Positions 3,346 to 46,640 of a DNA stretch of 64,000 nucleotides are shown in pieces. Position numbers and translations under genes: made by a program. The notes beneath the pieces were generated by a model, which saw only the letters and a list, made by a program, of their open reading frames with translations, did no database searches and was not told the origin of the DNA. Position 1 is the stretch's first letter, and each line of letters begins with the position of its first letter. Origin of the DNA: Chondrosia reniformis (taxonomy: Eukaryota; Porifera; Demospongiae; Chondrillida; Chondrillidae); the NCBI GenBank assembly GCA_947172415.1, contig OX359190.1:6076001-6140000 (forward strand). The letters are read 5' to 3'.

Positions 3346-3353
3346 ATATATAT

Positions 3354-6662: not shown

Positions 6663-6679
6663 CTCATTTCATTTTTTAA

Positions 6680-16459: not shown

Positions 16460-16506
16460 AAGTAACCAGGTTCTCCGTTAAGGCTTTTGTTTCTAAAGTA
16501 GGTGTT

Positions 16507-17990: not shown

Positions 17991-19500
17991 TATGAAAAAT
18001 CTAAGATACCATTTTCCTACATGCTATATACCTATTCTGTAAAAAGAGCCTATAGGGGAACTAAACCTAAAGAGAGCTTTAGATGAAGATACAGTAGTCT
18101 TTTCTTCCTTCTTTTCCCTTCTTTCATCTTCTTCTCCACTGGGTCAGACAGTCGTTTCTGGGAATTCCACCCTTCATCAGTGATCCTGGGAGTCTTTGTC
18201 TTTTTCTTTATCTTGATCTTCCGTGAATCCTTGGCTCTCTATGCTAAATCTAGGGGCCTTATATACACTATTTAGGCGTCAAAAGTTAAATAAGGTGTTA
18301 ATTAAGACACATGATGAAATTTAATTTTATGAAAGGAATGTAGGTTCAAGTAACTTTTATGAATTAATTATAAATCTATTAGTAATCTTGCTTGTACAGG
18401 TAAAACAGACTCAGCATTACTATAGACACAAGTAGGACATATTACGTAAGTCTACCCTTAGGTCTTCTAGTAGTAACATTTCTTTGGAGGTGGGGTAACA
18501 CAATATGGGGTAACACAAGACAATCCTTAAGCATACTAGCTACGTTTTGCTTATATTTGATTCTAACTAGAGGCTGCCGGGATAGGAAGGTTTTAAAGGT
18601 TGATTTTAGCTTAAAGTATTTGTAACCCTGCTTAATAGGCCTACTGCATAACTGCAAACGTTTAGCCTGAAAACTGGAGAAGTCACTACATATTCTAGAA
18701 TACCTAATTAGTTGTGAAATAAAGACACCATAGGCTGGGGTATTAGGAATATTACTATCTAAATGGGGGAAGTTTACTATATCAAAGTTATAAAGTCCTC
18801 TCGCTTGTCATATACTTTAGTGATAAATTGATTGTTAGTAATGGTTATATCTAAGTCTAAAAAGGGGGATTTTTTAGGGCTGGTATTTGTCTTTTAAAGA
18901 ATAAGTTCTTTGGGGTAAATATCACTAATTGACAGTTCAAAATCCTTGTTGTTAATACATAAAAGGTCATCAATATACCTATAAGTATTGGAAAATTTTA
19001 TAGCTAGGGTGATGTTATCCTTAAGTAGTCCTTTCATAAACTCATACTCATAGGCAAACAGAAAAAGATTAGCAACTACAGGGGCACAGTCAGTACCCAT
19101 AGGGATACCTACACATTGCTTAAATACAGAACCGTCTACACATACATAAATGTTGTCAATAAGGTAATTAAAGAGCTCTACTAAATGAACAGCTGTGACT
19201 GCTTTATTGGAGACATTGTTAGACCAAAAGGCTTTATCCTGACAGACTTCTACATATTGGGACTTTCTACAGGTATAGGCACTATAAATTAGGTTAGTAA
19301 TCTTATCTTTAAGTAAGTTATGGGGGATCGCTGTATATAATGTAGAAAAATCAAAACTAGCTAGCTGGGCTTTTCTAGTGGGTATAGACCTAAGACTATC
19401 TAAGACTTCTAGTGAGTTTTCTACTATCCAAAAGGCATTAACACCAGTATTCCTATATATACCTAGGCAGTATTCTCTAAAATGTTTGAGAATTAGTCTG
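17991..19500 (-). mobile_element. Penelope-like element copy A (left palindrome arm)
   Basis: Minus-strand copy of the RT element described at 43891-45318 (copy B). The frame is broken: the Met-to-stop piece 19100-18894 carries GTDCAPVVANLFLF and RYIDDLLCINN and ends at a TAA where copy B has ATA. A 2-nt insertion follows near 18790. A second open piece (18657-18442) carries the C-terminal part ending RRPKGRLT. The 3' non-coding part (about 18440-17991) includes a motif that on the minus strand reads ACTGATGAAGGGTGG then CCCAGAAACG (about 18155-18185). Flank sequences match those of copy B in mirror image. Confidence 0.85.
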
Positions 19501-20779
19501 TACTAGTTCCAGTTATATGTACTAGTTCCAGTTTTATGTACTAGTTGTATTTATTAGTTGCAAGTACGATTCGTATGTCCTATTTCTAAGTACTAGTTGT
19601 ATGTACTAGTTAATAGTTGTATATTCTAGTTGTATGTACTAGTTGAGTGTATTATTTGTGTATACTAATTGAATGTACAAATTGTATATACAAGGTGTAT
19701 GTAGTAATTGTATGTTCTAATTTTTTGAACTAGTTCTATGTACTAATTGTATGTACTAGTTATGTACTAATTATATGAATTAGTTTTAAGTTCTAGTTCT
19801 AGGCACCAGTTGTATGTACTATTTTTATGTACAACTTTTATGTACTATTTGTATGTACTATTTGTATGTACTAGTCGTATGTACTAGTAATATTAACTAG
19901 CTGTATGTACTATTTGTGTGTACTCAATACTATTTGTATGTACTAGTCGAATGTAGTAGTCATTTGTACTAGTTGAATGTTTAAGTAGTGTGTAATTGTT
20001 GTATGTAGTAGTTATATGTACTAGTTGTATGTACTATTTGTATGTACCAGTTGTATGTACTAGATGTTTTAACTAGTTTTAAGTTCTAGTACAAGTTTTA
20101 CTAGGTACTAGGAATGAACTAGTTCTAAGAACTACTGGTTTGTTTGTGTGAACTAGTTTTCTGTACTAGTTTTATGTACTATATTTATGTACTAATTATA
20201 TGTGTAGGTACTAGTTAAATGTAATAGTTATATGTACTAGTTATATGTACTAGTTGCAAGTACTAGTCGCATGTACTAGTAGTATATACTAATTGTAAGT
20301 TCTAGTCCTACTTATACTAGGGACTAGGGAGGTACTAGTTTTATATACTAGACACTAGTTGTATGTACTATTTATATGTACTATTTGTATGCACTAGTTA
20401 TATATTTGTGTACTAGTTATATGTACTGGTTGTATGCACTAGCTGTATGTACTAGTTGAATGTACTATTTATATTTTCTAGGTATATGTGTATGTACTCG
20501 TTCTATAAATTAGTTCTATGTACTAGTTTCTAGTTGTGTGTACTTTTTGTATGTACTAGTACTATGTACTGCTACTAGTTATAATTACTATATAGATGTA
20601 GGTACTGGTTGTATGTAGTAGTTGAATGAAGTAGTTGTATGTACTAATTGTTTGTACTAGTTGTATGTACCAGTTGTATGTGTATACTAATTGTAAGTAC
20701 TAGCTATGTTCTAGTTTTATGTATATACTAGTTTGTTGTTTATGTCGTAGTTGTATATGCTAGTTTTATGTACTCACAC
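19501..20779 (+). repeat. Minisatellite array, forward (left arm)
   Basis: 13-bp units; module marker near 20080-20150. The mirror is 42579-43890. Confidence 0.92.
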
Positions 20780-20870
20780 TATGAAAAATCTAGGATACCA
20801 TTTTCCTACGTGCTATATTCCTATTCTGTATAAAGAGCCTATAGGGGAACTAAACCTAAAGAGAGCTTTT
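20780..20870 (-). mobile_element. Penelope-like 3'-end fragment (left arm)
   Basis: About 90 bp matching the outermost end of copies A and C (ATGAAAAATCTAGGATACCA ... CTAAACCTAAAGAGAGCTTT). It is flanked by TACTCACACT and GGTTACACTATG, the mirror image of the flanks at 42489-42578. It is a solo end with no coding part. Confidence 0.85.
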
Positions 20871-23800
20871 GGTTACACTATGTACAAGTTGTATGTACTA
20901 GTTATGTATAAGTTGTATGTACTAGTTATGTACCAGTTGAACGTACTAGTTGTATGTAGTTGTGTGTACTAGTTGTATGTACTAGTTGTATGTACGTTTT
21001 GTATGTACTTGTTGTTTGTACTAGGTGTATGTACTATTTTTAAATACTAGTTATATGTGTATGTACTGGTTATATGTAGTAATTGTATGTAACAGTTGTA
21101 TGTACAAGTTGCCTGTACTACGTGTATCCGCTAGCTGTATGTACTAATTGTAGCTTCTAGTACTAGTTATATTAGGTACTAAGTAGGCAATAGTTGTATG
21201 TACTAGTTGTTAGTACTATTTTAATGTATTAGATATATGTACTAGTTCTATGTACTAGTACTAGTAATATTAACTAGTTGTAAGTACTGGTTGTATGTAG
21301 TAGTTGGATGTAGTAGTGGTATGTACTAATTGTATGTACTAGTTGTATGTACTAGTTGGATGTACTAGTTGTATGTACTAGTTGTACGTACTAGATATGA
21401 ACCAGTTGTATGTACAAGATGTATGCACTAGTTGTTTGTACTAGCTATATACTAGGTTTATGAATTTGTTGTATGTACTAATTGTGTGAACTAGTTGTAC
21501 CTACTAATATTATGTACCAGTTGAATGTACTCTTTGTATGTATATACTAGTTTTATTCACTAGTTAAATGTACTAATGTTATATATATACTAGTTGTATG
21601 TACTATTTATATTTACTAGGTATATGTGTATGAACTAGTTGTATTTAGTAGGTGTATGTACTAGTTATATATCCTAGTTGTTTGTACTCGTTGTATGTTC
21701 ACGTTGAATGAACTATTTGTATGTACCTTTTGTATGCACTATTTATAGGTACCAGTTTAATGTATGTAGTAGTTATATGTTTGGGAACTCGTTATATATA
21801 CTAGTTGTATGCACTAGCTGTATGTACTAGTTGTATGTACTATTCATAATTACAAGGTGTATGTGTAATTACTAGTTATATGTAGTTGGTGTATGTACTA
21901 GTTATATATCCTAGTTGTTTGTCCTAGTTGTATGTACTAGTTGAATGTACTAGTTATATGTAGTAGTTGTATGGACTAGTTGTATGTACTCAATACTATT
22001 TGTATGTACTAGTCGAATATAGTAGTAATTTGTACTAGTTGAATGTATAAGTAGTGTGTTATTGTTGCATGTACCAATTAAATGAACGAACTAGTTCTAT
22101 GAGCTACTTGTTTGTTTGTCAACTACTTTTCTGTACTAGTTGTATGTACTATGTTTATTTAGTAGTTATTTGTGTATGTACTAGTCATATGTAATAGTTA
22201 AATGTACTAGTTATATGTACTAGTTGTATGTACTAGTTGTATGTACTTGTGGTGTATACTAGTTGTAGGTTCTAGTCCTAATTATACTAGGTACTAGGGA
22301 GGTACTAGTTGTATATACTAGACACTAGTTGTATATACTACTTGTATGTACTAGTTGTATGTACTAGTCGCATGTACAAGTTATATGTACTAGTTACTAG
22401 TTATATGAACTAAGTGTACCTATTAATTTTATGTACTAGTTAGATGAACTAGTTGTATGTATTAGTTGTATGGAGGAGTTGCATGTGCTAATTGTATGTA
22501 CAAGTTCTGTGTACCAGTTGTATGTATATACTAGTTGTAATTACTAGCTATGTACTAGTTGTATATTCTAGTTGTATATACTAGATACTAGTTAAATGTA
22601 ATAGTTAAATTAGTTGTATGGAGGAGTTGCATGTGCTAATTGTATGTACAAGTTCTGTGTACCAGTTGTATGTATATACTAGTTGTAATTACTAGCTATG
22701 TACTAGTTGTATATTCTAGTTGTATATACTAGATACTAGTTAAATGTAATAGTTGTAGGTACTAGTTGTATGTACTAGTTGTATTTACTATTTGTATGTT
22801 CTATTTATATGTGTGTGTACTAGTTATATGTACTAGTACTAGTACTACTTGTATGCGCTAGCTGTATGTACTAATTGTATGTACTATTTACATTTACTAG
22901 GTATACGTGTATGGACTGGATATTTGTAGTAGGTGTATGTACTAGTTATATGTACTAGTGGTATGTACAATACAAAATGTATGTACTATTTTTATCTATG
23001 GTTTATATATATGTGCTATGTGTATGTACAATACAAAAGTACCAGTTATATGAATGTAGTGGCTATATGTTTGTGAATTAGTTGTATATACTAGTTGTAT
23101 GCACTAGCTGTATGTACTGGTTGTATGTATATGTGTATTTACTAGTTATATGTAGTTGGTGTATGTACTAGTTATATATCCTAGTTGTTTGTCCTAGTTG
23201 TATGTACTAGTTGAATGTTCTAGTTATATGTACTAGTTACTAGTTATATGAACTAGTTGTACGTACTAATTGTAAATACTAGTTGGATTAACTAGTTGTA
23301 TGTACTAGTTTTATGAACTAGTTGTATGTACTAGTTGTATGTACTAGTTACATGTACTGGTTATATGTACTAGTTAATAGTTGTGTGAACTAGTTGTACC
23401 GCCTAATTTTAAATAGTATGTACTAGTTGTATGTACTATTCATTATTACAATGTATATGTGTATTTACTAGTTATATGTAGTAGATGTATGTACTAGTTA
23501 TATTTCCTAGTTGTTTGTCCTAGTTATATGGACTAGTTGAATGTACTAGTTGTATGTACTAATTGAATGGGCTAGGTGTTTGTACTATTTGGTATGTACT
23601 AGTTGTATGTACTATTTCTATGTACTAGTTATGTACCAGTTGTACGTAATAGTTGTATGTATATTCTAGTTCTTAATATTAGCTATGTACTAGATGTATA
23701 TTCAAGCTGTATGTTCTATATAGTATTTTGTACTCGTTCTATGAACTAGGAGTATTTACTTGTTTCTAGTTGTATGTACTAGTTGTTAGTTCTAGTTGTA

Positions 23801-26800
23801 TGTACTATGTGTATGTACCAGTTGTTGATCCTTGTGCTAGTTATACTATGTACTAGGTTGGTTCTATTTGTATGTACTAGATACTGCTAGTTGTATGAAC
23901 TAGTTTTATGAACTAGTTGTATGTACTGTTTATATGTACTAGTTAGATGTACCAGTTATATGTACCAGTTATATGTACTAGTAGTATGTACTAGTTATAA
24001 TTACTAGCTTTATGTACTATTTGTGTGTACTAATTGTATGCACTTGTTGTATGTACTAGTTGTAGGTTCTAGTACTGGTTAAACTAGGTACTAGGTAGGT
24101 TCTTTATAGTTATATGTACCAGAAACTACTTGTATGTACTTGTTATATAAAGTAGTTATACGACCTAGTTGTATATACCAGTAGTATGACCTAGTTGCTA
24201 GTTTTTTTATGTACAAGTTGTTTGTAAAAGTTCAATGTACTAGTTTTATGTTTTCATTCCAATTTGTATGTACTAGTTATATGTACTAATTCTACCAACT
24301 AATTGCATGTACAAGTTGCATGTACTAGCTGCATGTACATGTTGCGCGTACTAGTTCAATGTACTAGTTGTATGTAGTCGTTAATAGTTGTTAGTAGTAG
24401 TTGTATGTTCTAGTTTTCTGTTCTAGTTCCAGTTATATGTACTAGTTGTAGGTACTAGTTGTGTATATTAGTTGCAAGTACGAATCGTATGTCCTATTTG
24501 CATGTACTAGTTGTATGTGATAGTTAATAGTTGTATAGTCTAGTTGTATGTACTAGCTGTGTGCACTAGTTTTAAGTACTAGTTGTATGTGCTATGTCCA
24601 TGTTCCAGTTGTTGATTCTTGTACTATTTATACTATGTACTAGGTAGGTTCTAGTTATATGTACTAAATACTTGTTGCATGTACTAGTTGTATGAACTAG
24701 TTTTATGAACTAGTTGTATGAACTATTTATATGTACTAGGTATATGTAGCAGTTATATGTTCTAGTTTTATGTACTAGTAGTGTGTACTAGTTATATTTA
24801 CTAGCTTTATGTACTATTTGTGTGTACTAATTGTATGCACTAGTTGTATGTACTAGTTGTATGTACTAAATACTATTTGTATGTAATAGTTGAATGTAGT
24901 AGTTATTTGTACTAGTTGAATGTATAAGTAGTGTGTAATTGTTGTATGTACTAGTTATATGCATTAGTTGTATGTAGTATTTGTATGTTACTTTGTATGT
25001 ACTACTTTTATGTACTAGATGTTTGAACAAGGTTTAGGTTCTAGTACAAGTTATACTTTGTATTAGGAATGAACTAGCTCTATGTTTGTTTGTGTGAACT
25101 AGTTTTCTGCACTAGTTGTATGTACTATATTTATGTGCTAATTATATGTGTTATAGTTATATGTACTAATTATATATACTAGTTTCATGCACTAGTTGTA
25201 TGTACTAGTAGTATATACTAGTTGTAAATTCTATTCCTAATTATACTAGGTACTAGGGAGGAACTAGTTGTATATACTAGACACTAGTTGTATGTACTAG
25301 TTATGTGGACTAGTTATATGTACTAGTTGTATGTACCAGTTTTGTGTAATTGTTGTATGTACTTGTTGCATGTACTACTTATATGTAGTCATTACATTTG
25401 TATATACTGGGTGTGTGTACCAGTTGTTTGTACTAGTTATATATTCTAGTTCTACGTACTATTTATATGTACTAAATATATGTGAATGTACTACGTATAT
25501 GTACTAGTTGTATGTACAAGTTGTTTTAGCTGGTTGTATGTACTAATTCTATGTACTAGTTGTATGTACTAGTTATATGTAGTAGATATGAACCAGTTGT
25601 ATATACAAGATGTATGCACTAGTACTTTGTACTAGCTGTATATTAGTTTTATGAACTAGTTGCATGTACTATGTGTATGGACTAGTTGTATGTTCTAGTC
25701 ACATGTACTAGTTATATGTACTAGTTACTAGTTGTATGAACTAGTTGTAACTATTAAATTTATGTACTAGTTGTATGTACTAGTTAATAGTTGTATAGTC
25801 TAGTTGTATGTATTAGTTCTATGCACTAGTTGTAAGTACTAGTTGTATGTACTATGTGCATGTTCCAGTTGTTGATTCTTGTACTATTTATACTATGTAC
25901 TAGGTAGGTTCTAGTTGTATGTACTAGATACCTGTTGCATGTACTAGTTGTATGAACTAGTTTTATGAACTAGTTGAGTGTACTCTTTATATGAACTAGG
26001 TTTATGTACCAGTTATATGTACTAGTTTGATGTACTAGTAGTAGGTACTAGTTATATTTACTAGCTGTATGTACTACTTGTATGTACTAATTGTATGCAC
26101 TAGTTGTATGTACTAGTTGTATGTACTAGTTGTATGTACTAAATACTATTTGTATGTACTAGTTGAATGTATAAGTAGTGTGTAACTGTTGTATGTACTA
26201 GTTATATGTACTAGTTATATGTAGTAGATATGAACCAGTGGTATGTACAAGATGTATGCACTAGTACTTTGTACTAGCTGTATACTAGTTTTATGAACTA
26301 GTTGTATGTACTATGTGTATGGACTAGTTGTATGTTCTAGTCGCATGTACTAGTTATATGTACTAGTTACTAGTTGTATGAACTAGTTGTAACTATTAAA
26401 TTTATGTACTAGTTGTATGTACTAGTTAATAGTTGTATAGTCTAGTTGTATGTATTAGTTCTATGCACTAGTTGTGAGTACTAGTTGTATGTACTATGTG
26501 TATATTCCAGTTGTTGATTCTTGTATCATTTATACTATATACTAGGTAGGTTCTAGTTGTATGTACTAGATACTTGTTGCATGTACTAGTTGTATGTACT
26601 TTTTGTATGTTCTAGTTGTATGTACTAGTCGTATGCACTAGATGTTTGAACTAAAATTAGGTTCTAGTACAAGTTATAGTAGGTACTAGGAATGAACTAG
26701 TTTTAGAACTACTTGTTTGTTTGTGTGAACTAGTTTTTTGCACTAGTTGCATGTACTATATTTATGTGCTAATTATATGTGTCATATGTAATAGTTATAT

Positions 26801-29041
26801 GTACTAGTTATATGTACTAGTTTCATATACTAGTTGTATGTACTAGTGGTATGTACTAGTTGTAGGTTATAATCCTAATTATACTAGGTACTAGGGAGGA
26901 ACTAGTTGTATATACTAGACACTAGTTGTATGTACTAGTTATGTGTACTAGTTATATGTACTAGTTGTATGTATCAGTTTTGTATAATTGTTGTATGTAC
27001 TAGTTGTATGTACTGTTTATATGTACTAGTTGTTTGTACTAGTTGTATGTACTACTTATATGTTCTTGTTACAATTGTATGTACTGGGTGTATGTACTAG
27101 TTGTTGGTACTAGTTATATATACTAGTCGTACGTACTATTTATATATACTATATATATGTGTATGTACTAGGTATATGTACTACTTGTATGTACAAGCTG
27201 TATTAGCTGGTTGTAAGTACTAATTGTATGCACTAGTTGAAAGTACTAGTCGTATGTACTAGTTGTACGTGCTAGAACTAGCTATATTTACTAGTTTTAG
27301 GTACTAGTTGTATATATTCGTTGTATGTAGTAGTTGCATATGCTAATTGTAAGTACAAGTTCTGTGTACTATATAGTTGTATGTATATACTAGTTGTATG
27401 TACCAGTTGTACTTACTAGTTGTATGTACTAGTTGTATTTATAATTTGTATGTTCTATTTATATGTGTGTGTACTAATTATATTTACTTGTTGTAGCGCT
27501 ATTTATATATTTGTATGTGCTATTTACATTTACTAGGTATACGTGTATGAACTAGTTAAATGTAGTAGGTTTATATACTAGTTATATGTCCTAGTTGTAT
27601 GTACTAGTTGCATGCACTAGTTGTATGTTCCAGTTGTATGTACTAGTCACATGTAAGAATTATATTTACTAGTTACTAATTTTATAAACTAGTTGTACCT
27701 ACGAATTTTATGTACTACTTGTATGTACTAGTTGTATGTATATACCAGTTGTATGTACTAGTTAAATGTACTAGTTTTATATTTATACTAATTGTATGTA
27801 CTAGCTTCTAGTTTTATGTATTATGTGTAGGTACTATTCATATATACCAGTTATATGTTTATGTATTAGTTTTATGTAGTAGGTGTGTGTACTTGTTATA
27901 TGTAGTAGGTGTTTGTACTTGTAATATGTACAAATTGAAAGTACTAGTTGTATGTGCTAATTGTATGTACCCGTTCTGTGTTCTAGTTGTATGTTGATAC
28001 TAGTTGTATGTACTAGCTTTGTACTAGTTGTATGTACTAGTCCTTTGAACTAGTTGTAGCTTCTGGTACAAGTTATACTAGGAACTAGGAAGGAACGTGT
28101 TCTCTATTCTACATGTGTTGTTTGTTTGAACCAGTTTTATGTACTAATTGTGTGTACTAGTTGTAGGTTAAAAGCCTAGTTATATTAGAGACTAGGGAGG
28201 TGCTAGTTGTATGTACTAGATACTAATTGTATATACTAGTTGTATGTACCAGTTGTATGTAATTGTATTAGTTGTATGTACTATTTATATGTACTATATA
28301 TATGTTTGTGTACTAGCTATATATACTACTTGTTTGTGCTAGCTATATGTGCTGGTTGTAGGTACTAATTGTATGTACTTGTTGTATGTACTAATAGCAG
28401 GTATATTTACTAGTTGTAGGTGCTAGTTGTATGTACAAGTTGTGTGTGGTAGTTGTATGTACTAATTGTATGGACTAGTTGGATGTACTAGTTGTATGTA
28501 CTAAATATGAACCAGTTGTGTGTACAAGATGTATGCACTAGTTCTTTGTACTAGCTATATACTAGTTTTATGAAGTAGTTGTATCTACTTGTTGTAAATA
28601 TAGTTGTATGTCATAGTTGCATGTACTAGTTGTATGTACTAGTTACTAGTTGTGTGAACTACTTGTACCTACTAAATTTATGTACTAGTTGTATTAACTC
28701 TTTGTATGTATATACTAGTTTTATGTACTAGTTAAATGTACTAGTGTTATATATATGTTAGTCGTATGGACTAATTTCTAGTTGTATGTACTAGTTTTAT
28801 GTACCCGTTCAATGTACTAGTTGTGTGTACTATTTATAATAACAAGGTATATGTGTATTTACTAGTTATATGTAGTTGGTGTATGTACTAGTTATCTATC
28901 TATGTTGTTTGTCCTAGTTGTATCTACTAGTTTAATGTACTAGTTATATGTACTCGTTAATAGTTGTATGAACTAAGTTGTACGTACTAATTGTCAATAC
29001 TGGTTGTATGAACTAGTTGTATGTACTAGTTTTATGAACTA
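20871..29041 (+). repeat. Minisatellite array, forward (left arm), with internal duplications
   Basis: About 8.2 kb of degenerate units without genes. Two recent tandem duplications are visible: a 148-bp unit (starts 22473 and 22621, GAGGAGTTGCATGTGC) and a 642-bp unit (starts 25581 and 26223, AGTAGATATGAACCAG). Confidence 0.92.
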
Positions 29042-29591
29042 CAGTGGAACCTCTCTAAGACGGACACCATCGGGACAGAGCCATGTGTCCATTATATGGA
29101 GGGTGCCCTTTATTCAGAGGTTTTTGTTTTAAGTTTAAGTTTATAGATAGAGATATACTGCGTACAATCGCACCGGCTGTATCTCACTTACTAAAAAGAA
29201 GCACTAATAAAGCACGGTTGAAGATTTGTAGCTGCTGTTAATCGTAGCGCAGGATATGGCATAGATTTTATGGCACACAAGACTACATTGATAGACTCCG
29301 AGAACTTATCATGCCGTAGAAATAGAATAGCAATTTTTTTTAATAAACTGGTGCTAATTGCGTGTGCGAGAAAAGAGCGCAAGCGTCTGCAATCTCTGTT
29401 ATCAGAGGTTCTTTTGTATTGGGTCGGTCAAACGGGGAGTATTTTGTTGTCCGTTTTACGGGTTAGAGAGGTGTCCGTTTTTGGAGTATTTTTGTACAGA
29501 GATTACCGGATATCGTTCAGGACCTGCGTAAGTGTCCGTTTTAACGCAAGTGTCCGCCGTTGGGAGGTGTCCGTTAATGGAGGTTCCACTG
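29042..29591 (+). mobile_element. 550-bp CAGTGGAACC-ended miniature element (left arm)
   Basis: Starts CAGTGGAACCTC and ends with GAGGTTCCACTG, flanked by TA on both sides. The ends and the TA duplication fit Tc1/mariner-pogo-type DNA transposons. Subterminal GGACAC/GTGTCCGT motifs repeat near both ends. The 116-aa frame inside shows no transposase motifs and is probably spurious, so this is a non-autonomous copy. A mirror copy lies at 36058-36607. Confidence 0.85.
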
Positions 29592-29593
29592 TA

Positions 29594-32310: not shown

Positions 32311-34628
32311 TTATACACATATACCTAGTAATTACAAATAGAACATAAATCTAGTATATTCAACTAGAAACTTTTATAAACACTAGTACATTTAAATAGT
32401 ACATAAAAATAGTACATAAAACTAATATATACATACAAAGAGTACGTACAATTAGTACATAAAATTAGTAGGTACAACTAGTTCACACAACTAGTAACTA
32501 GTACATCTAACTAGTACATGCAACTATAACATACAACTAGTACATACAACTAGCACCTACAACTAAGAAATATAACTAGTATTAGTACATACAACAAGTA
32601 CATACAATTAGTACATACAACCAGCACATACAGCTAGTACATACAAGTAGTAAATATAAATAGTACATACAACTAGTACAATTACCCACAACTGGTACAT
32701 GCAACTAGTACATGCAATTAGTAACTAGTACATACAACTAGCACTTCGCTATTACCTAATATGACTAGGACTTGAACCTACAACTAGTACATACAACTAG
32801 TACATACAATTTGCAACTAGTACATAAAACTAATACATACAACTAGTACATATAACTATTACATTTGATTGGTACATACAAATGGTATCGAGTACATACA
32901 AGTAGTATATACAGCTAGTACATTCAACTAGTATATACAACCACTACATAAGCCGGAAACTAGTACATACAACTAGTACATAGCTACTACATACAACTAG
33001 TATATACATACAAATAGTGCATACAACTAACACATACAATTAGTACATACAACCACTACATCCAACTACTACTTACAACCAGTACTTACAACTGGTAAAT
33101 ATTAACTAATTCTGGTACATAGAACCAGTATATACAACTAATACGTTAAAGTAGTCCTAACAACTAGTACAAACAACTAATTCCTACTCAGTACCTAATA
33201 AAACTAGTACTAGCACCTACAACTTATACATACAGCTAGCGCATACACGTAGTACAGGCAACTTGTACATCCAACTGTATCATACTATATACTACATATA
33301 ACCAGTACATACAAATATAACTACTATATAAAAATAGTACATACACCTAGTACATACAACAAGTACTTACAAAAAGTACATACAACTAGTATATACAATT
33401 CATAGAACGAGTACAAAATACTTGAACATACAATTAGTACATTCAACTCGTATGTACAACTAGCACAAAAAACTATGACATATAACTAGTACATACACCT
33501 ACTACATATAACGAGCACATACACATATATCTAGAAAATATAAATAAATAAAAAAGTACTAGTACATACAGCTTGCGCATACAACGAGTACATATAACCA
33601 GTACACAAACATAAAAATAGTACATACAAATAGTACATACAAATAGTAAAGACAACTAGAACATACAACTAGTACAAAGCTAGTATATACAACTAGTATA
33701 AACATACAACTAGTACACAGAATGTGTACATACAATTAGCACATACATCTAGTACTTTTAACTAGTACATGTGACAGGTTCAAACACCTACTACATATAA
33801 CTAATACATAAACATATAACTAGTATATATGAATAGTACACACACATGGTACATACAAATAGAAACTAGTACATACAACTAGAACATACAACTACTACAT
33901 AGCTAGTACATACAACTGGTATATACATACAACTAGTACATAAAATTAATAGGTACAACTAGTTCATACAACTAGTAACTAGTACATATAACTAGTACAT
34001 GCGACTAGTACATACAACTAGTTCATGCAACTAGTACAGAAAACTTGTTCACACCAACAAACGAGTAGTTTATAGAACCAATTCATTAGTATAACTTGTA
34101 CTAGAACCTAAAACTAGTTCAAACATCTAGTACATACAACTAGTAAATACAACTAGTACATACAACTAGTACATACAACTAGTACATACAACTAGTACAT
34201 ATAACTAGTACATACAACTAGTACATACAACTAGTACATATAACTAGTACATACAACAATTACACACTACTTATACATTCAACTAGTACAAATAACTAAT
34301 ACATTCGACTAGTACATACAAATAGTATAGTATGTACATACAACTAGCACATACAACTAGTGCATACAATTAGTATGCACAGATAGTACTAACAGCTAGT
34401 AAATATTACTTGTACATACTACAAGTACATAAAACTAGTACATATAACTGGTAAATATAACTAGTACATATAAACAGAACATACAACTAGTTCATAAAAC
34501 TAGTTCAGACAACTAGAACATACCACTAGACTATACAACTATTAACTAGTACAAACAACTAGTACATGCAAATAGGACATACAAATCGAACTTGCAACTA
34601 ATAAATACAACTAGTACCTACAACTAGG
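32311..34628 (-). repeat. Minisatellite array, inverted (spacer and start of right arm)
   Basis: At about 32311 the unit flips to CATACAACTAGTA. Positions 32311 to about 33290 have no mirror in the left arm and form the spacer. From about 33291 the text mirrors the left arm. Confidence 0.9.
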
Positions 34629-35250
34629 AGAGAACCTTGTTACTTCTTGCCTTAGTGTACTAAGGCAAGGAGTATCTGGCTTGGACAACCCTCAGTCAGT
34701 TATGTTTTCCTTTCTTTGGGTTTTTAGCCAGAAGCCTCGGCTTTTCCTCCTTCCGACAGCAGCAGACGGGTGCACGTCGGGCCAAAGTTGACCGTCATAA
34801 TAGGAGGGAGTACCTCCATACACCAATCCACCACTGCTTTCCAGAGGTCGACAGGCAAGGACTGGGACAGGACTACTTATCGTCCAGGCCCCAATCCCTC
34901 AACAGATAGATGTCGCCTCAATATCCTCACAGCCGAACAGAGAACAGTTCTCTGCATGGCTCTCATCACTTCTACTGCACTTTTTGACAGCTTTGGAATT
35001 CCCCTAAGGTCTTCCAGGAGCATGTCCACTGTCCCTAAAGCACCAATTATCATCGGGACTACCTTAATTCGGTAGCCCCTAAATTGTTTCCTCATATCAG
35101 CTGCCAGCTTCTGGTACTTTTGGAACTTCTCTTGCCATCTTCCATTAATATTGCTGTCAGTAGGAACTGACATCTCAATAATGAAGATGGACTTACATAG
35201 CCAATCCTCAACCACTAAGTCTGGCCTTCTTTCTGTCTATCTTTCTGTCT
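34629..35250 (-). mobile_element. 5'-truncated second copy of the RLE retrotransposon (right arm only)
   Basis: The minus strand matches the last ~620 bp of 12145-16496. It has the endonuclease end, open from 35215 to 34877 (VEDWLCKSIFIIEMSVPTD, EKFQKYQKLAADMRKQF), then the 3' non-coding region and the 11-bp stem-loop (34646-34669). 5' truncation is typical of target-primed reverse transcription. It is flanked by CTACAACTAG on both sides, possibly a 10-bp duplication, but that string is also common repeat text. The left arm has no equivalent. Confidence 0.88.
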
Positions 35251-36057
35251 ACAACTAGTACATATAACTGGAACTAGTTCATCAAACTAGTACCTACACC
35301 TACTACTAACAGCCAGTAACGAGTACACACAACTAGTACATTGAAGTAGTATGCACAACATGTTCATGCAACTAGTACACGCAACTTGTACATACAATTA
35401 GTAGATAAAATTAGTACATATAACTAGTACATACAAATAGTACATACAACTAAAACATACCATTTAGTACACACACCTAGGATATACAATTAGTAAATAC
35501 AACTAGTATATACATACAACAAGTACAAACAACTAGTATCTACAACTAATAAATATAACTAGTACTAGTCCATACAACTAGTACATGCAACTGGTACTTG
35601 CAACTTGTACATTTAACTAGTACACACATCTATCACATATAACTAATACCTAAAAATATAACTAGCACATATATATAGTACATTAACATAGTACATACAA
35701 GTAGTTCATACAACTACTAGTACATAGAACGAGTACATAAAACTAGGATCTATAACTAGTACACACCTACAACATATAATTAGTACATAAATATATAACT
35801 AGTACATATGAATAGTGCATCCATATAGTATATATAACTAGTTCATAAAACTAGTACATGCAATTAGAAACTAGTACATACAACTAATATATACACAAAA
35901 CTAGCACATGTAATTAGTTCATACAACTATTATATACAAACAACTAGTTCATACAACTACTATTTACAATTAGGTCGTACAACTAGTTCACACAACTATT
36001 AACTAGTACATATAACCAGTACATGCAACTAGTACATGCAACTATTACATACAACTA
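35251..36057 (-). repeat. Minisatellite array, inverted (right arm)
   Basis: Reverse-complement units between the truncated retrotransposon and the 550-bp element. No gene is seen. Confidence 0.9.
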
Positions 36058-36607
36058 CAGTGGAACCTCCATTAACGGACACCTCCCAACGGCGGACACT
36101 TGCGATAAAACGGACACTTACGCAGGTCCCGAAAGATATCCGGTAATCTCTGTACAAAAATACTCCAAAAACGGACACCTCTCTAACCCGTAAAACGGAC
36201 AACAAAATACTCCCCGTTTGACCAACACAATACAAAAGAACCTCTGATAACGGAGATTGCAGACGCTTGCGCTCTTTTCTCGCACACGCGATTAGCACCA
36301 GTTTATTAAAAAAAATTGCTATTCTATTTCTACGGCATGATAAGTTCTCGGAGTCTATCAATGTAGTCTTGTGTGCCATAAAATCTATGCCATATCCTGC
36401 GCTACGATTAACAGCAGCTACAAATCTTCAACCGCGCTTTATTAGTGCTTCTTTTTAGTAAGTGAGATACAGCCGGTGCGATTGTACGCAGTATATCTCT
36501 ATCTATAAACTTAAACTTAAAACAAAAACCTCTGAATAAAGGACACCCTCCATATAATGGACACATGGCTCTGTCCCGATGGTGTCCGTCTTAGAGAGGT
36601 TCCACTG
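36058..36607 (-). mobile_element. 550-bp CAGTGGAACC-ended miniature element (right arm)
   Basis: Mirror copy of 29042-29591 with the same length, TA flanks and ends. By eye about 9 substitutions separate the two (about 1.6%). The outer flanks (ATGAACTA and AGTTGTATGTAATAG in the left-arm sense) are also shared, so the pair was made by duplicating one insertion. Confidence 0.87.
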
Positions 36608-36609
36608 TA

Positions 36610-39600
36610 GTTCATAAAACTAGTACATACAACTAGTTCATACAACCAGTATTGACAATTAGTACGTACAACTAGTTCATACAACTATTAACGAGTACAT
36701 ATAACTAGTACATTAAACTAGTAGATACAACTAGGACAAACAACATAGATAGATAACTAGTACATACACCAACTACATATAACTAGTAAATACACATATA
36801 CCTTGTAATTATAAATAGTACACACAACTAGTACATTGAACGGGTACATAAAACTAGTACATACAACTAGAAACTAGTCCATACGACTAATATATATATA
36901 ACACTAGTACATTTAACTAGTACATAAAACTAGTATATACATACAAAGAGTTAATACAACTAGTACATAAAATTAGTAGGTACAAGTAGTTCACACAACT
37001 AGTAACTAGTACATACAACTAGTACATGCAACTATGACATACAACTATATTTACAACAAGTAGATACAACTACTTCATAAAACTAGTATATAGCTAGTAC
37101 AAAGAACTAGTGCATACATCTTGTACACACAACTGGTTCATATTTAGTACATACAACTAGTACATCCAACTAGTCCATACAATTAGTACATACAACTACC
37201 ACACACAACTTGTACATACAACTAGCACCTACAACTAGTAAATATACCTGCTATTAGTACATACAACAAGTATATACAATTAGTACCTACAACCAGCACA
37301 TATAGCTAGCACAAACAAGTAGTATATATAGCTAGTACATAAACATATATATAGTACATATAAATAGTACATACAACTAATACAATTACATACAACTGGT
37401 ACATACAACTAGTATATACAATTAGTATCTAGTACATACAACTAGCACCTCCCTAGTCTCTAATATAACTAGGCTTTTAACCTACAACTAGTACACACAA
37501 TTAGTACACACAATTAGTACATAAAACTGGTTCAAATAAACAACACATGTAGAATAGAGAACACGTTCCTTCCTAGTTCCTAGTATAACTTGTACCAGAA
37601 GCTACAACTAGTTCAAAGGACTAGTACATACAACTAGTACAAAGCTAGTACATACAACTAGTATCAACATACAACTAGAACACAGAACGGGTACATACAA
37701 TTAGCACATACAACTAGTACTTTCAATTTGTACATATTACAAGTACAAACACCTACTACATATAACAAGTACACACACCTACTACATAAAACTAATACAT
37801 AAACATATAACTGGTATATATGAATAGTACCTACACATAGTACATAAAACTAGAAGCTAGTACATACAATTAGTATAAATATAAAACTAGTACATTTAAC
37901 TAGTACATACACATATATATAGTATATATAAATAGTACGTACGACTAGTATATATAACTAGTACCAACAACTAGTACATACACCCAGTACATACAATTGT
38001 AACAAGAACATATAAGTAGTACATACAACTAGTACAAACAACTAGTACATATAAACAGTACATACAACTAGTACATACAACAATTATACAAAACTGATAC
38101 ATACAACTAGTACATATAACTAGTACACATAACTAGTACATACAACTAGTGTCTAGTATATACAACTAGTTCCTCCCTAGTACCTAGTATAATTAGGATT
38201 ATAACCTACAACTAGTATATACCACTAGTACATACAACTAGTATATGAAACTAGTACATATAACTAGTACATATAACTATTACATATGACACATATAATT
38301 AGCACATAAATATAGTACATGCAACTAGTGCAAAAAACTAGTTCACACAAACAAACAAGTAGTTCTAAAACTAGTTCATTCCTAGTACCTACTATAACTT
38401 GTACTAGAACCTAATTTTAGTTCAAACATCTAGTGCATACGACTAGTACATACAACTAGAACATACAAAAAGTACATACAACTAGTACATGCAACAAGTA
38501 TCTAGTACATACAACTAGAACCTACCTAGTATATAGTATAAATGATACAAGAATCAACAACTGGAATATACACATAGTACATACAACTAGTACTCACAAC
38601 TAGTGCATAGAACTAATACATACAACTAGACTATACAACTATTAACTAGTACATACAACTAGTACATAAATTTAATAGTTACAACTAGTTCATACAACTA
38701 GTAACTAGTACATATAACTAGTACATGCGACTAGAACATACAACTAGTCCATACACATAGTACATACAACTAGTTCATAAAACTAGTATACAGCTAGTAC
38801 AAAGTACTAGTGCATACATCTTGTACATACCACTGGTTCATATCTACTACATATAACTAGTACATACAACTAGTACATATAACTAGTACATACAACAGTT
38901 ACACACTACTTATACATTCAACTAGTACATACAAATAGTATTTAGTACATACAACTAGTACATACAACTAGTACATACAACTAGTGCATACAATTAGTAC
39001 ATACAAGTAGTACATACAGCTAGTAAATATAACTAGTACCTACTACTAGTACATCAAACTAGTACATATAACTGGTACATAAACCTAGTTCATATAAAGA
39101 GTACACTCAACTAGTTATATACCTAGTACATATAAATAGTTCATACAACTAGTTCATAAAACTAGTTCATACAACTAGTACATGCAACAAGTATTTAGTA
39201 CATACAACTAGAACCTACCTAGTACATAGTATAAATAGTACAAGAATCAACAACTGGAACATGGACATAGTACATACAACTAGTACTTAAAACTAGTGCA
39301 CACAACTAGTACATACAACTGGACTATACAACTATTAACTATCACATACAACTAATACATGCAAATAGGACATACGATTCGTACTTGCAACTAATATACA
39401 CAACTAGTACCTACAACTAGTACATATAACTGGAACTAGAACAGAAAACTAGAACATACAACTACTACTAACAACTATTAACGACTACATACAACTAGTA
39501 CATTGAACTAGTACGCGCAACATGTACATGCAGCTAGTACATGCAACTTGTACATGCAATTAGTTGGTAGAATTAGTACATATAACTAGTACATACAAAT

Positions 39601-42488
39601 TGGAATGAAAACATAAAACTAGTACATTGAACTTTTACAAACAACTTGTACATAAAAAAACTAGCAACTAGGTCATACTACTGGTATATACAACTAGGTC
39701 GTATAACGACTTTATATAACAAGTACATACAAGTAGTTTCTGGTACATATAACTATAAAGAACCTACCTAGTACCTAGTTTAACCAGTACTAGAACCTAC
39801 AACTAGTACATACAACAAGTGCATACAATTAGTACACACAAATAGTACATAAAGCTAGTAATTATAACTAGTACATACTACTAGTACATATAACTGGTAC
39901 ATATAACTGGTACATCTAACTAGTACATATAAACAGTACATACAACTAGTTCATAAAACTAGTTCATACAACTAGCAGTATCTAGTACATACAAATAGAA
40001 CCAACCTAGTACATAGTATAACTAGCACAAGGATCAACAACTGGTACATACACATAGTACATACAACTAGAACTAACAACTAGTACATACAACTAGAAAC
40101 AAGTAAATACTCCTAGTTCATAGAACGAGTACAAAATACTATATAGAACATACAGCTTGAATATACATCTAGTACATAGCTAATATTAAGAACTAGAATA
40201 TACATACAACTATTACGTACAACTGGTACATAACTAGTACATAGAAATAGTACATACAACTAGTACATACCAAATAGTACAAACACCTAGCCCATTCAAT
40301 TAGTACATACAACTAGTACATTCAACTAGTCCATATAACTAGGACAAACAACTAGGAAATATAACTAGTACATACATCTACTACATATAACTAGTAAATA
40401 CACATATACATAGTAATGATGAATAGTACATACAACTAGTACATACTATTTAAAATTAGGCGGTACAACTAGTTCACACAACTATTAACTAGTACATATA
40501 ACCAGTACATGTAACTAGTACATACAACTAGTACATACAACTAGTTCATAAAACTAGAACATACATAGCTACATAGCTAGTAATTACAACTAGTATATAC
40601 ATACAACTGGTACACAGAACTTGTACATACAATTGGCACATGCAACTCCTCCATACAACTAATACATACAATTAGTACCTAAAACTAGTAAATATAGCTA
40701 GTACTAGTACATATAACTAGTACACACACCTATTACATATGACTAATGCATAAAAATATAACTAGTTCAAATAAATAGTGAATCCACATAGTACATACAA
40801 CTAGTACATAAAACTAGTAAATACAACTGGAAACTAATACATACAACTAGTATATATATAAAATTAGTACATTTAGCTAGTATATACAACTGGTATATAC
40901 ATACAACTAGTTCATCTAACTAGTACATAAAATTAATAGGTACACTTAGTTCATATAACTAGTAACTAGTACATATAACTTGTACATGCGACTAGTACAT
41001 ACAACTAGTACATACAAGTAGTATATACAACTAGTGTCTAGTATATACAACTAGTACCTCCCTAGTACCTAGTATAATTAGGACTAGAACCTACAACTAG
41101 TATACACCACAAGTACATACAACTAGTACATACAACTAGTACATATAACTAGTACATTTAACTATTACATATGACTAGTACATACACAAATAACTACTAA
41201 ATAAACATAGTACATACAACTAGTACAGAAAAGTAGTTGACAAACAAACAAGTAGCTCATAGAACTAGTTCGTTCATTTAATTGGTACATGCAACAATAA
41301 CACACTACTTATACATTCAACTAGTACAAATTACTACTATATTCGACTAGTACATACAAATAGTATTGAGTACATACAACTAGTCCATACAACTACTACA
41401 TATAACTAGTACATTCAACTAGTACATACAACTAGGACAAACAACTAGGATATATAACTAGTACATACACCAACTACATATAACTAGTAATTACACATAC
41501 ACCTTGTAATTATGAATAGTACATACAACTAGTACATACAGCTAGTGCATACAACTAGTATATATAACGAGTTCCCAAACATATAACTACTACATACATT
41601 AAACTGGTACCTATAAATAGTGCATACAAAAGGTACATACAAATAGTTCATTCAACGTGAACATACAACGAGTACAAACAACTAGGATATATAACTAGTA
41701 CATACACCTACTAAATACAACTAGTTCATACACATATACCTAGTAAATATAAATAGTACATACAACTAGTATATATATAACATTAGTACATTTAACTAGT
41801 GAATAAAACTAGTATATACATACAAAGAGTACATTCAACTGGTACATAATATTAGTAGGTACAACTAGTTCACACAATTAGTACATACAACAAATTCATA
41901 AACCTAGTATATAGCTAGTACAAACAACTAGTGCATACATCTTGTACATACAACTGGTTCATATCTAGTACGTACAACTAGTACATACAACTAGTACATC
42001 CAACTAGTACATACAACTAGTACATACAATTAGTACATACCACTACTACATCCAACTACTACATACAACCAGTACTTACAACTAGTTAATATTACTAGTA
42101 CTAGTACATAGAACTAGTACATACATCTAATACATTAAAATAGTACTAACAACTAGTACATACAACTATTGCCTACTTAGTACCTAATATAACTAGTACT
42201 AGAAGCTACAATTAGTACATACAGCTAGCGGATACACGTAGTACAGGCAACTTGTACATACAACTGTTACATAAAATTACTACATATAACCAGTACATAC
42301 ACATATAACTAGTATTTAAAAATAGTACATACACCTAGTACAAACAACAAGTACATACAAAACGTACATACAACTAGTACATACAACTAGTACACACAAC
42401 TACATACAACTAGTACGTTCAACTGGTACATAACTAGTACATACAACTTGTACATAACTAGTACATACAACTTGTACATAGTGTAACC
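36610..42488 (-). repeat. Minisatellite array, inverted (right arm)
   Basis: About 5.9 kb of reverse-complement units without genes. It is about 2.3 kb shorter than the matching left-arm stretch. Module markers lie near 37440-37620, 38340-38420 and 41060-41290. Confidence 0.92.
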
Positions 42489-42578
42489 AAAAGCTCTCTT
42501 TAGGTTTAGTTCCCCTATAGGCTCTTTTTACAGAATAGGCATATAGCACGTAGGAAAATGGTATCCTAGATTTTTCAT
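42489..42578 (+). mobile_element. Penelope-like 3'-end fragment (right arm)
   Basis: Mirror of 20780-20870: AAAGCTCTCTTTAGGTTTAG ... TCCTAGATTTTTCAT, bounded by GTGTAACC and GGTGTGAGTA. A 63-aa frame here (42591-42400) reads through it by chance. Confidence 0.85.
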
Positions 42579-43890
42579 GGTGTGAGTACATAAAACTAGC
42601 ATATACAACTACGACATAAACAACAAACTAGTATATACATACAACTAGAACATAGCTAGTACTTACAATTAGTATACACATACAACTGGTACATACAACT
42701 AATACAAACAATTAGTACATACAACTACTTCATTCAACTACTACATACAACCAGTACCTACATCTATATAGTAATTATAACTAGTAGCAGTACATAGTAC
42801 TAGTACATACAAAAAGTACACACAACTAGAAACTAGTACATAGAACTAATTCATAGAACGAGTACATACACATATACCTAGAAAATATAAATAGTACATT
42901 CAACTAGTACATACAGCTAGTGCATACAACCAGTACATATAACTAGTACACAAATATATAACTAGTGCATACAAATAGTACATATAAATAGTACATACAA
43001 CTAGTGTCTAGTATATAAAACTAGTACCTCCCTAGTCCCTAGTATAAGTAGGACTAGAACTTACAATTAGTATATACTACTAGTACATGCGACTAGTACT
43101 TGCAACTAGTACATATAACTAGTACATATAACTATTACATTTAACTAGTACCTACACATATAATTAGTACATAAATATAGTACATAAAACTAGTACAGAA
43201 AACTAGTTCACACAAACAAACCAGTAGTTCTTAGAACTAGTTCATTCCTAGTACCTAGTAAAACTTGTACTAGAACTTAAAACTAGTTAAAACATCTAGT
43301 ACATACAACTGGTACATACAAATAGTACATACAACTAGTACATATAACTACTACATACAACAATTACACACTACTTAAACATTCAACTAGTACAAATGAC
43401 TACTACATTCGACTAGTACATACAAATAGGATTGAGTACACACAAATAGTACATACAGCTAGTTAATATTACTAGTACATACGACTAGTACATACAAATA
43501 GTACATACAAATAGTACATAAAAGTTGTACATAAAAATAGTACATACAACTGGTGCCTAGAACTAGAACTTAAAACTAATTCATATAATTAGTACATAAC
43601 TAGTACATACAATTAGTACATAGAACTAGTTCAAAAAATTAGAACATACAATTACTACATACACCTTGTATATACAATTTGTACATTCAATTAGTATATA
43701 CAAATAATACACTCAACTAGTACATACAACTAGACTATACAACTATTAACTAGTACATACAACTAGTACTTAGAAATAGGACATACGAATCGTACTTGCA
43801 ACTAATAAATACAACTAGTAACTAACACTAGTACATATAACTGGAAATAGTACATATAACTGGAACTAGTACATATAACTGGAACTAGTA
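42579..43890 (-). repeat. Minisatellite array, inverted (right arm)
   Basis: Reverse-complement units; the mirror of 19501-20779. Module marker near 43195-43290. Confidence 0.92.
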
Positions 43891-45318
43891 CAGACTAATT
43901 CTCAAACATTTTAGAGAATATTGCCTAGGTATATATAGGAATACTGGTGTTAATGCCTTTTGGATAGTAGAAAACTCACTAGAAGTCTTAGATAGTCTTA
44001 GGTCTATACCCACTAGAAAAGCCCAGCTAGCTAGTTTTGATTTTTCTACATTATATACAGCGATCCCCCATAACTTACTTAAAGATAAGATTACTAACCT
44101 AATTTATAGTGCCTATACCTGTAGAAAGTCCCAATATATAGAAGTCTGTCAGGATAAAGCCTTTTGGTCTAACAATGTCTCCAATAAAGCAGTCACAGCT
44201 GTTCATTTAGTAGAGCTCTTTAATTACCTTATTGACAACTTTTATGTATGTGTAGACGGTTCTGTATTTAAGCAATGTGTAGGTATCCCTATGGGTACTG
44301 ACTGTGCCCCTGTAGTTGCTAATCTTTTTCTGTTTGCCTATGAGTATGAGTTTATGAAAGGACTACTTAAGGATAACATCACCCTAGCTATAAAATTTTC
44401 CAATACTTTTAGGTATATTGATGACCTTTTATGTATTAACAACAAGGATTTTGAACTGTCAATTAGTGATATTTACCCCAAAGAACTTATTCTTATAAAG
44501 ACAAATACCAGCCCTAAAAAATCCCCCTTTTTAGACTTAGGTATAACCATTACTAACAATCAATTTATCACTAAAGTATATGATAAGCGAGAGGACTTTA
44601 ACTTTGATATAGTAAACTTCCCCCATTTAGATAGTAATATTCCTAATACCCCAGCCTATGGTGTCTTTATTTCACAACTAATTAGGTATTCTAGAATATG
44701 TAGTGACTTCTCCAGTTTTCAGGCTAAAAGTTTGCAGTTATGCAGTAGGCTTATTAAGCAGGGTTACAAATACTTTAAGCTAAAATCAACCTTTAAAACC
44801 TTCCTATCCCGGCAGCCTCTAGTTAGAATCGAATATAAGCAAAACGTAGCTAGTATGCTTAAGGATTGTCTTGTGTTACCCCATATTGTGTTGCCCCACC
44901 TCCAAAGAAATGTTACTACTAGAAGACCTAAGGGTAGACTTACGTAATATGTCCTACTTGTGTCTATAGTTATGCTGAGTCTGCTTTACCTGTACAAGCA
45001 AGATTACTAATAGATTTATAATTAATTCATAAAAGTTACTTGAACCTACATTCCTTTCATAAAATTAAATTTCATCATGTGTCTTAGTTAACACCTTATT
45101 TAACTTTTGGCGCCAAAATAGTGTATATAAGGCCCCTAGATTTAGCATAGAGAGCCAAGGATTCACAGAAGATCAAGATAAAGAAAAAGACAAAGACTCC
45201 CAGGATCCCAGAAACGGCTGTCTGACCCAGTGGAGAAGAAGATGAAAGAAGGGAAAAGAAGGAAGAAAAGACTACTGTATCTTCATCTAAAGCTCTCTTT
45301 AGGTTTAGTTCCCCTATA
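43891..45318 (+). mobile_element. Penelope-like element copy B (right arm), RT frame open
   Basis: 5'-truncated retroelement. The RT frame is open from 43895 to the stop at 44947. About 370 bp of 3' non-coding sequence follows, ending abruptly at CCCCTATA (45318), where other copies continue with GGCTCTTT. In this copy the 3' region lacks about 20 nt carrying the CTGATGA core found in copies A and C (about 45205, between CAGGATC and CCAGAAACG). Confidence 0.85.
43895..44947 (+). CDS. Reverse transcriptase fragment of Penelope-like copy B
   Basis: About 350 codons without a stop; the start is missing because the copy is truncated (the first Met, at 44291, is internal). RT motifs in order: QLASFDFSTLYTAIPHNLL (motif A with the catalytic D), GIPMGTDCAPVVANLFLF (motif B-like), FRYIDDLLCINN (the YIDD catalytic box), then SPFLDLGITITNN and YDKREDFNFDIVNFPH. 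The GTDCAP/FLDL pattern belongs to a reverse-transcriptase lineage common in invertebrate genomes and closest, as I read it, to Penelope-like elements. The frame ends at RRPKGRLT with no GIY-YIG domain, so the family either lacks an endonuclease or carries it elsewhere. Without an N-terminus or neighbours this is a retroelement remnant, not a host gene. Confidence 0.75.
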   Translation, partial: LILKHFREYCLGIYRNTGVNAFWIVENSLEVLDSLRSIPTRKAQLASFDFSTLYTAIPHNLLKDKITNLIYSAYTCRKSQYIEVCQDKAFWSNNVSNKAVTAVHLVELFNYLIDNFYVCVDGSVFKQCVGIPMGTDCAPVVANLFLFAYEYEFMKGLLKDNITLAIKFSNTFRYIDDLLCINNKDFELSISDIYPKELILIKTNTSPKKSPFLDLGITITNNQFITKVYDKREDFNFDIVNFPHLDSNIPNTPAYGVFISQLIRYSRICSDFSSFQAKSLQLCSRLIKQGYKYFKLKSTFKTFLSRQPLVRIEYKQNVASMLKDCLVLPHIVLPHLQRNVTTRRPKGRLT

Positions 45319-46552: not shown

Positions 46553-46618
<66 letters not shown>

Positions 46619-46640
46619 TATAATTACAATAATAAAAATA
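45319..46640 (+). mobile_element. 5'-truncated non-LTR retrotransposon, AAT-tailed
   Basis: Decayed plus-strand coding sequence of a second non-LTR type. Recognisable pieces in order: LGLHLNVEKSKLI, HDAITLLQHSFAIP, DDPAWVQATLPVGS with GLGLRSAAHL, DDTLRIAIGLRLGTPLC, a zinc-knuckle-like CTLCGMDVDRLATHGLSC, SDGKCPDGMT, VWDATCADTL, and FLRNLGLRLKEATG. PDG followed by VWDAT resembles a PD-(D/E)xK endonuclease. Stops and frameshifts (near 45598, 45845, 46040, 46125 and 46320) break the frame. It ends in a long AAT/TAA tract (about 46530-46620), a usual non-LTR tail. It abuts palindrome copy B directly at 45318/45319. Confidence 0.82.

Follow-up and report, generated by a model that had tools for sequence, protein, structure and literature searches.

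Within a stretch of chromosome 2 of the demosponge Chondrosia reniformis (C2:6,076,001-6,140,000, 64,000 bp; hereafter, the window, whose own coordinates are used below unless a contig is named), positions 18050-45319 form a single long palindrome in the assembly, the arms of which consist of a degenerate 13-bp satellite repeat interrupted by transposable elements. We consider it likely, judging from the anatomy of the sequence, that this palindrome is a real, young and single interstitial inverted duplication of the fold-back/template-switch class. Put simply, this is probably a chromosome accident of an ordinary kind, in which a piece of satellite was copied backwards beside itself and then joined to unrelated DNA.

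A single long palindrome in satellite DNA

When exact inverted matches within the window are chained, 19 colinear blocks pair 18050-32265 with 33290-45319, producing the long anti-diagonal between 18 and 45 kb that a preliminary description of this DNA, made by reading the letters alone, had predicted; the coordinates, the arm lengths and the pairing of the central arrays proposed there agree with these blocks and with the chain of inverted pairs. The left arm (18050-32311, plus strand) is 14,262 bp long and the right arm (32312-45319, minus strand) 13,008 bp, with about 78% and 85% of their respective lengths aligned, so far as exact blocks cover them. The arms differ at 82 of 11,085 aligned bp (0.74%), a count that excludes arm-specific indels and segments and in which a few adjacent blocks overlap by 10-20 bp. 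A single mirror chain, running from 18177/45212 to 31863/33704, accounts for 11 of the 25 longest inverted pairs (7300 in total), at 96-99% identity.

That this goes beyond the background similarity of the satellite is apparent from the longest exact inverted matches between the arrays of the two arms (1227, 703 and 648 bp) compared with those between the right arm and a control region of the same satellite at 1001-10038 (87, 57 and 55 bp). In the 104 kb that start at C2:6,036,001, 59 of the 109 exact inverted matches of at least 60 bp fall inside the palindrome, 14 belong to one pair of long interspersed nuclear elements (LINEs), and the other 36 are all at most 115 bp long. Further long palindromes were sought in these 104 kb and none was found, there being no match above 115 bp outside the palindrome and the LINE pair. 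Thus, kilobase-long arms in mirror order surround a spacer far shorter than either of them. No run of N interrupts the palindrome; the sole one in the window, 200 bases at 801-1000 within the left satellite array, is probably a scaffold gap.

Of the three mirrored elements in the preliminary description, two can be upheld, namely, a retroelement at the outer ends and a dispersed element of about 554 bp at 29040-29593 (plus strand) in the left arm, mirrored at 36056-36609 (minus strand) in the right arm. If the third was meant to be the LINE, the copies are separate insertions (see below). A short fragment of the 3' end of the retroelement, near 20.8 and 42.5 kb, is also paired. The probe 28976-29700, which comprises the dispersed element and its junctions with the satellite, is found at full length in the two arms only (40 of 3483 candidates scored in the genome of 117,379,552 bp, 15 contigs). 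All three arm probes gave full-length matches of 99-100% in both arms and nowhere else among the scored places, where the next best match was partial, at 96%, for one probe (40 of 3483 candidates scored) and reached 80% (6 of 3336) and 84% (3 of 2831) for the others.

The centre of the palindrome

The centre had been described as a spacer of about 1 kb between the arms; alignment with paralogs on C4 and C10 instead identifies this DNA as the inner end that naturally belongs to the right arm. As outgroups we used satellite paralogs taken from C4, C10 and C14 (L040 on C4, L042 on C14, L041 and L043), which are mostly 85-97% alike where in register. A probe of the presumed spacer (9 of 3408 candidates scored) is covered over most of its length at eight other places, with identities of 91% on C10, 82-86% on C4, 82-83% on C14 and 81% on C3, and seven of the eight span its minus-strand part almost exactly; a spacer of DNA without any counterpart is ruled out by these matches on other chromosomes. 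The stretch 32312-33289 (minus strand) is matched over its whole length by L040 (85%), L041 (90%) and L043 (80%), and by L042 at 71%, out of register.

The order of the pieces in the C4 paralog allows the two arms to be read separately. Left-arm tiles from 29750 to 32000 correspond to L040 5450 to 8049, apart from tile 30250, which has its best match elsewhere, and a tandem-duplicated stretch at 31000-31500. The right arm, followed from 33361 down to 32312, corresponds to L040 7949-8922, and the 62 bp at 32250-32311 (plus strand) to L040 8927-8988, at 98%, that is, to the DNA lying just past the inner end of the right arm in the paralog. Accordingly, the paralog order runs unbroken through the right arm up to the turn, whereas the left arm, on this alignment, skips 923 bp of C4 coordinates at a shared 13-bp word. 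Because the right arm keeps the paralog order and the left arm jumps, the true turn (junction 1), where the plus-strand array flips to the minus-strand array with one unassigned base, is placed by the C4/C10 alignment at 32311|32312; by the same comparison, the original loop is put at about 66 bp, of which 32250-32311 would be the remains, and the left arm is read as having later lost about 1 kb, the counterpart of 32312-33289, near 32262 at a 13-bp direct repeat. After this outgroup correction, a single-copy loop of about 66 bp lies between the inverted copies. No inverted microhomology is visible at junction 1, where the divergence of the outgroups could hide a few bp.

The outer ends and the second junction

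The two outer ends of the palindrome differ. The left-arm retroelement copy (17991-19500, minus strand) is 5'-truncated, has an intact 3' end and is followed by satellite; the right-arm copy (43891-45319, plus strand) has the identical 5' truncation point and is cut 59 bp before the 3' end of the family, so that the mirrored portion comprises 18050-19500 and 43891-45319. In a search for the family, 40 of 1861 candidates were scored, the query included and the left-arm copy not being among them, and 20 others were fetched. All 20 align across 43891-45319. Ten of the 20 were also aligned with the left-arm copy: nine of these alignments ended at 17988-17994, and the tenth, with L025, continued to 17513, because the L025 copy also sits in satellite. 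From its motifs, we take this retroelement to be Penelope-like. An open reading frame of the family matched Pfam RVT_1 with 27.6 bits, under the cut-off of 29.6; the two open reading frames of one copy, L014, had no Pfam match to the GIY-YIG endonuclease, and a search of solved structures with the Penelope-like frame gave matches at chance level only.

The satellite flank beyond the left copy (16476-17990, plus strand) has no counterpart to the right of 45319. Seven of the 11 flank tiles starting at 16776-17776 have their best match in register on C14 (L042 23-1254), and six of the seven tiles after the retroelement resume at L042 1498 onward; a probe joining the two sides into an empty site matches L042 1310-1504 at 85.9% and a second place in L042 at 87.8%. 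Most likely, then, the left arm keeps the ancestral neighbour, and the right arm was cut.

The cut is a second junction, at 45318/45319 (junction 2), which joins the inverted copy to other DNA, the interior of one retroelement meeting the interior of another with a 2-bp overlap, AG. The partner is a LINE-like retroelement at 45318-46659 (plus strand), broken at the junction and followed by an ATA-rich stretch at 46530-46880. Among the four copies fetched after 40 of 933 candidates had been scored, those on C5, C9 and C12 share 337 bp further upstream, and the C6 copy starts inside the element. With both partners broken inside and only 2 bp in common, the join has the look of a rearrangement junction, unlike a repeat-driven misassembly.

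The right boundary could, alternatively, simply reflect the insertion of a 5'-truncated LINE into a palindrome that was longer, given that the upstream side of 45318-46659 is cut and an ATA-rich stretch follows. We regard this as very unlikely: in the window beyond the element, a search for the absent 59 bp in the expected orientation and for mirrored satellite found neither, and the element is 96.8% (45318-45783) and 93.7% (45784-46659) identical to the nearest fetched copy, that on C5, against a change of only about 0.4-0.8% per arm since the duplication. Because this divergence from the C5 copy exceeds the change per arm, the boundary element appears to be older than the palindrome, as judged from the scored candidates.

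Changes in the arms since the proposed duplication

On the duplication reading, differences between the arms are later events, and several of these can be assigned to one arm. An R2-like LINE of 621 bp, 5'-truncated and with a 10-bp repeat at its edges, is present in the right arm only (34628-35248, minus strand), and the corresponding place in the left arm, 30389-30398, is empty; this pattern indicates that the element entered the right arm alone, after the duplication. Outside the palindrome, ending at 16.475 kb, there is a longer copy of the same LINE; a portion of the reverse transcriptase of this copy matches R2 structures (E 2.1e-11). The R2-like copies at 12142-16341 and in L037 (C2:6046607-6050845) are inverted relative to each other about 37 kb apart and are 90-100% identical per 250-bp tile.

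Three segments are kept in the left arm (plus strand) and are contiguous with their surroundings in paralogs: 22703-23304 in L040 (82%), 24746-25967 in L040 (82%) and, in part, in L042 (86%), and 27172-27749 in L043 (86%) and L040 (84%). The right arm probably lost these segments, given this contiguity in paralogs at 82-86%; the polarity is likely rather than certain, since the segments are all satellite and the right-arm versions align too. An identical 148-bp tandem duplication at 22461-22754 (plus strand), the right-arm version of which is in register with L040 (93%) and L042 (94%), is, by this comparison, derived in the left arm.

Substitutions are spread evenly over the two arms. In the retroelement, 11 were polarised to the left arm, eight to the right and 11 were shared. 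In addition, the right copy has a 20-bp deletion and the left copy two single-base insertions. In the rest of the arms, 29 were assigned to the left and 22 to the right, three were ambiguous and 11 had no outgroup letter (p = 0.40). Error-prone copying of one arm, which was considered, is unsupported by such an even distribution. Along the arms, the mismatches are overdispersed (index 2.63, p = 5e-5), also when the two innermost 400-bp windows are left out (index 2.09, p = 0.0018), and the longest identical run between the arms, which joins neighbouring blocks, is long (p = 0.005). This patchy divergence suggests some gene conversion from arm to arm.

The same overdispersion and long identical run could be taken to mean that two independent satellite segments were made alike by gene conversion, with no duplication involved. 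This we find hardly credible, because the arms have in common both the point at which one retroelement is 5'-truncated and a second element flanked by the same satellite junctions, and because the C4 and C10 tiles are at most 98% alike.

Is the palindrome an assembly artefact?

In principle, the arms could have arisen in the assembler, through the head-to-head joining of the two haplotypes of a single locus or of a fold-back read. The reported k-mer completeness of the assembly (69.43% for the primary, 74.54% for the alternate and 93.73% for the two combined; PMC12181767) implies, by our own estimate with k assumed, a heterozygosity of about 1%, which is near the 0.74% divergence of the arms, and the mean HiFi read of about 12.9 kb (10.31 Gb in 0.80 million reads) is shorter than the 27-kb palindrome. 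Nevertheless, an artefact appears improbable. The assembly sequence contains no gap within the palindrome, no long repeat overlap at the join and no homologous outer flanks, the DNA beyond 18050 and that beyond 45319 being unrelated, unlike two haplotypes of one region. Junction 2 shares 2 bp and at junction 1 no shared bases are seen, so there is no long overlap to mislead an assembler. With about one difference between the arms per 135 bp, 13-kb HiFi reads should be able to separate them. A fold-back read, moreover, is ill suited to explain a LINE with an empty site opposite and the 1-kb asymmetry at the centre.

Origin of the palindrome

The sequence supports a common ancestor of the arms, the order of the central array, both junctions, the one-sided cut of the retroelement, the later deletion and the later LINE; the repair pathway is the part of the explanation that we infer. 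The ancestral plus-strand stretch would have consisted of the flank, the retroelement and about 13 kb of satellite. It would have been turned round near 32311|32312, leaving a loop of about 66 bp, with some 13 kb copied back in reverse until copying stopped at 45319, inside the retroelement, and the end of the copy would then have been attached, through 2 shared bp, to a different retroelement at the margin of the chromosome arm. Later changes would be the loss at the centre of the left arm and the entry of the LINE into the right arm. Such steps would fit a broken end folding back on itself or a replication fork undergoing two template switches.

A broken end that folds back gives rise to a single-copy loop and a second junction, according to PMC3907307 and PMC7467729, and both marks are found at this palindrome. 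The fold-back duplication after a break that had been suggested for this DNA is therefore supported, the array being doubled head to head and the right arm ending in a break. The human fold-back inverted duplications (PMC3907307) likewise consist of two inverted copies flanking a single-copy loop, with a further junction that leads into other DNA; the present case differs in being interstitial, in lying in satellite, in a much shorter loop, in the lack of clear inverted microhomology and in the divergence that the arms have since accumulated. The hairpin-mediated foldback inversions of yeast, in their large-loop class of at least 15 nt (PMC7467729), share a loop of tens of bases and a second rearrangement; by contrast, no stem was identified here, and the second rearrangement, mainly mediated by homology in yeast, involves 2 bp.

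The anatomy is also compatible with U-type fusion of sister chromatids with ends broken about 66 bp apart, followed by breakage of the bridge at 45319 and re-joining, as in a breakage-fusion-bridge cycle. This would be a sub-case of a real inverted duplication and does not exclude the explanation that we prefer. We see it as possible, albeit doubtful. A junction 1 with one unassigned base and no visible microhomology, as in end joining, is in its favour, as are the even distribution of substitutions between the arms and the joining of the right arm's end to other DNA. However, the broken product must be re-joined to its distal chromosome arm, and the key feature of the U-type model, in the account given in PMC3907307, is that there is no spacer at all. 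Since no inverted microhomology is visible, the turn may also be due to the fusion of sister chromatids offset by 66 bp or to two template switches. The interstitial position, evident from the continuation of the chromosome arm past junction 2, is slightly more in keeping with template switching, or with a fold-back whose product was then re-joined. In one assembled haplotype, the three candidate first steps (broken-end fold-back, sister-chromatid fusion and template switch) are indistinguishable, and we make no firm choice among them.

Several points weigh against the reading of the palindrome as a fold-back or template-switch product with the history outlined above. Both junctions are taken from the assembly alone. 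Inverted microhomology, usual at the base of a fold-back loop, was not seen at junction 1, and the loop of about 66 bp is below the 766-70,466 bp given for the human cases in PMC3907307. The outgroups are paralogs from the same genome, and that on C4, end to end with gaps, is just 75% like the left arm; several tiles have their best matches out of register, and the second place in L042 is a slightly better fit for the empty-site probe of the retroelement. The right-arm versions of the three segments assigned to loss also align across the gap, at 77-86%, and for the indel at 30808-31361 no polarity was obtained from the outgroups.

As it stands, the palindrome is a scar without evident function. 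Loss of the inner end of the left arm may have made it easier to keep. Palindromes of Y chromosomes have long, near-identical arms between which gene conversion occurs; the sponge palindrome shares the long, near-identical arms and an uneven divergence that suggests conversion, and differs in that no gene was found in its arms, which are made of satellite and transposable elements. Nothing seen points to a sex chromosome or to gene amplification, no direct test of either having been made.

The satellite block

The satellite was considered as a candidate centromeric repeat, for which one block per chromosome would be expected. A perfect 33-mer of it occurs 1800 times in the genome, and all 60 of its places on C1 lie at 3.82-4.68 Mb. 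A 49-mer has 178 places; among the 100 listed, there is a single cluster on each of C4-C8, and on C9 as far as listed, C3 having, in addition to a broad cluster, one array at 7.0 Mb. This array, at C3:7003510-7003623, is short, consists of perfect 13-bp units and lies a long way from the C3 cluster. On C2, the complete list of 27 places of a 39-mer extends from 4.805 to 6.110 Mb, the last two being in the right arm of the palindrome, with none beyond, and Tandem Repeats Finder, at a score of at least 90, reports no array of the 13-bp repeat in the window to the right of 43.9 kb. Hence, the palindrome lies where the satellite block of C2 ends on its high-coordinate side.

In the 104 kb from C2:6,036,001, the orientation of the satellite switches five times, one of the switches being the turn of the palindrome. 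A chromosome-wide mirror polarity, with plus on the left and minus on the right, was hinted at by part of C1 and by two inverted blocks on C14, but is ruled out by many switches that follow no rule of side (a 36-mer at all of its 50 places and a 39-mer at the first 100 of 641). The two C14 blocks lie at 2.758 and 3.820 Mb; about 15 of 31 tiles show them in mirror register. More generally, the satellite is organised in multi-kilobase segments common to C2, C4, C10 and C14 (and C3, by search matches only), and L036 and L039, to the left of the window (-38806 to -38204 and -5403 to -4703), separated by about 33 kb, are satellite segments in inverted orientation with 94-96% identity over about 0.7 kb.

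Other features of the window and the genome

An element of about 1.3 kb at 59114-60430, which we take to be Foldback-like, has inverted ends with arrays of a 21-bp repeat (59210-59353 and 60212-60374); it is missing from many of the listed copies of its host repeat, for example on C7 and C12, where the two sides of the site adjoin and have 6 bp in common. A transposase fragment at 53131-53778 has a TNP-like RNase H domain (PF21787, E 1.6e-23), and an open frame of 414 amino acids at 62730-63974 has a BEN domain (PF10523, E 3.6e-5). C15 is the mitochondrion, of 17,451 bp, in which COX1 reads TGA as tryptophan and AGR fits arginine.

Implications

Fold-back inverted duplications and palindromes are already known kinds of rearrangement, of which this is a well-resolved new example. 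Its interest lies in how unusually well an inverted duplication in satellite DNA can be read from it: the steps can be ordered, from the ancestral array through both junctions to the later asymmetric deletion at the centre and the later insertion, and the duplication can be placed relative to the activity of retroelements. Among the titles listed in searches on sponge or Chondrosia centromeres, none was devoted to sponge centromeric satellites or concerned this repeat, which does not prove absence in print. It is conceivable, if speculative and rather unlikely in our estimation, that copying by fold-back or template switch moves the borders of the satellite blocks of this animal into the chromosome arm, flipping the orientation of the repeat again and again. 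Given that orientation switches recur here, events of this kind may shape the satellite blocks of a sponge.

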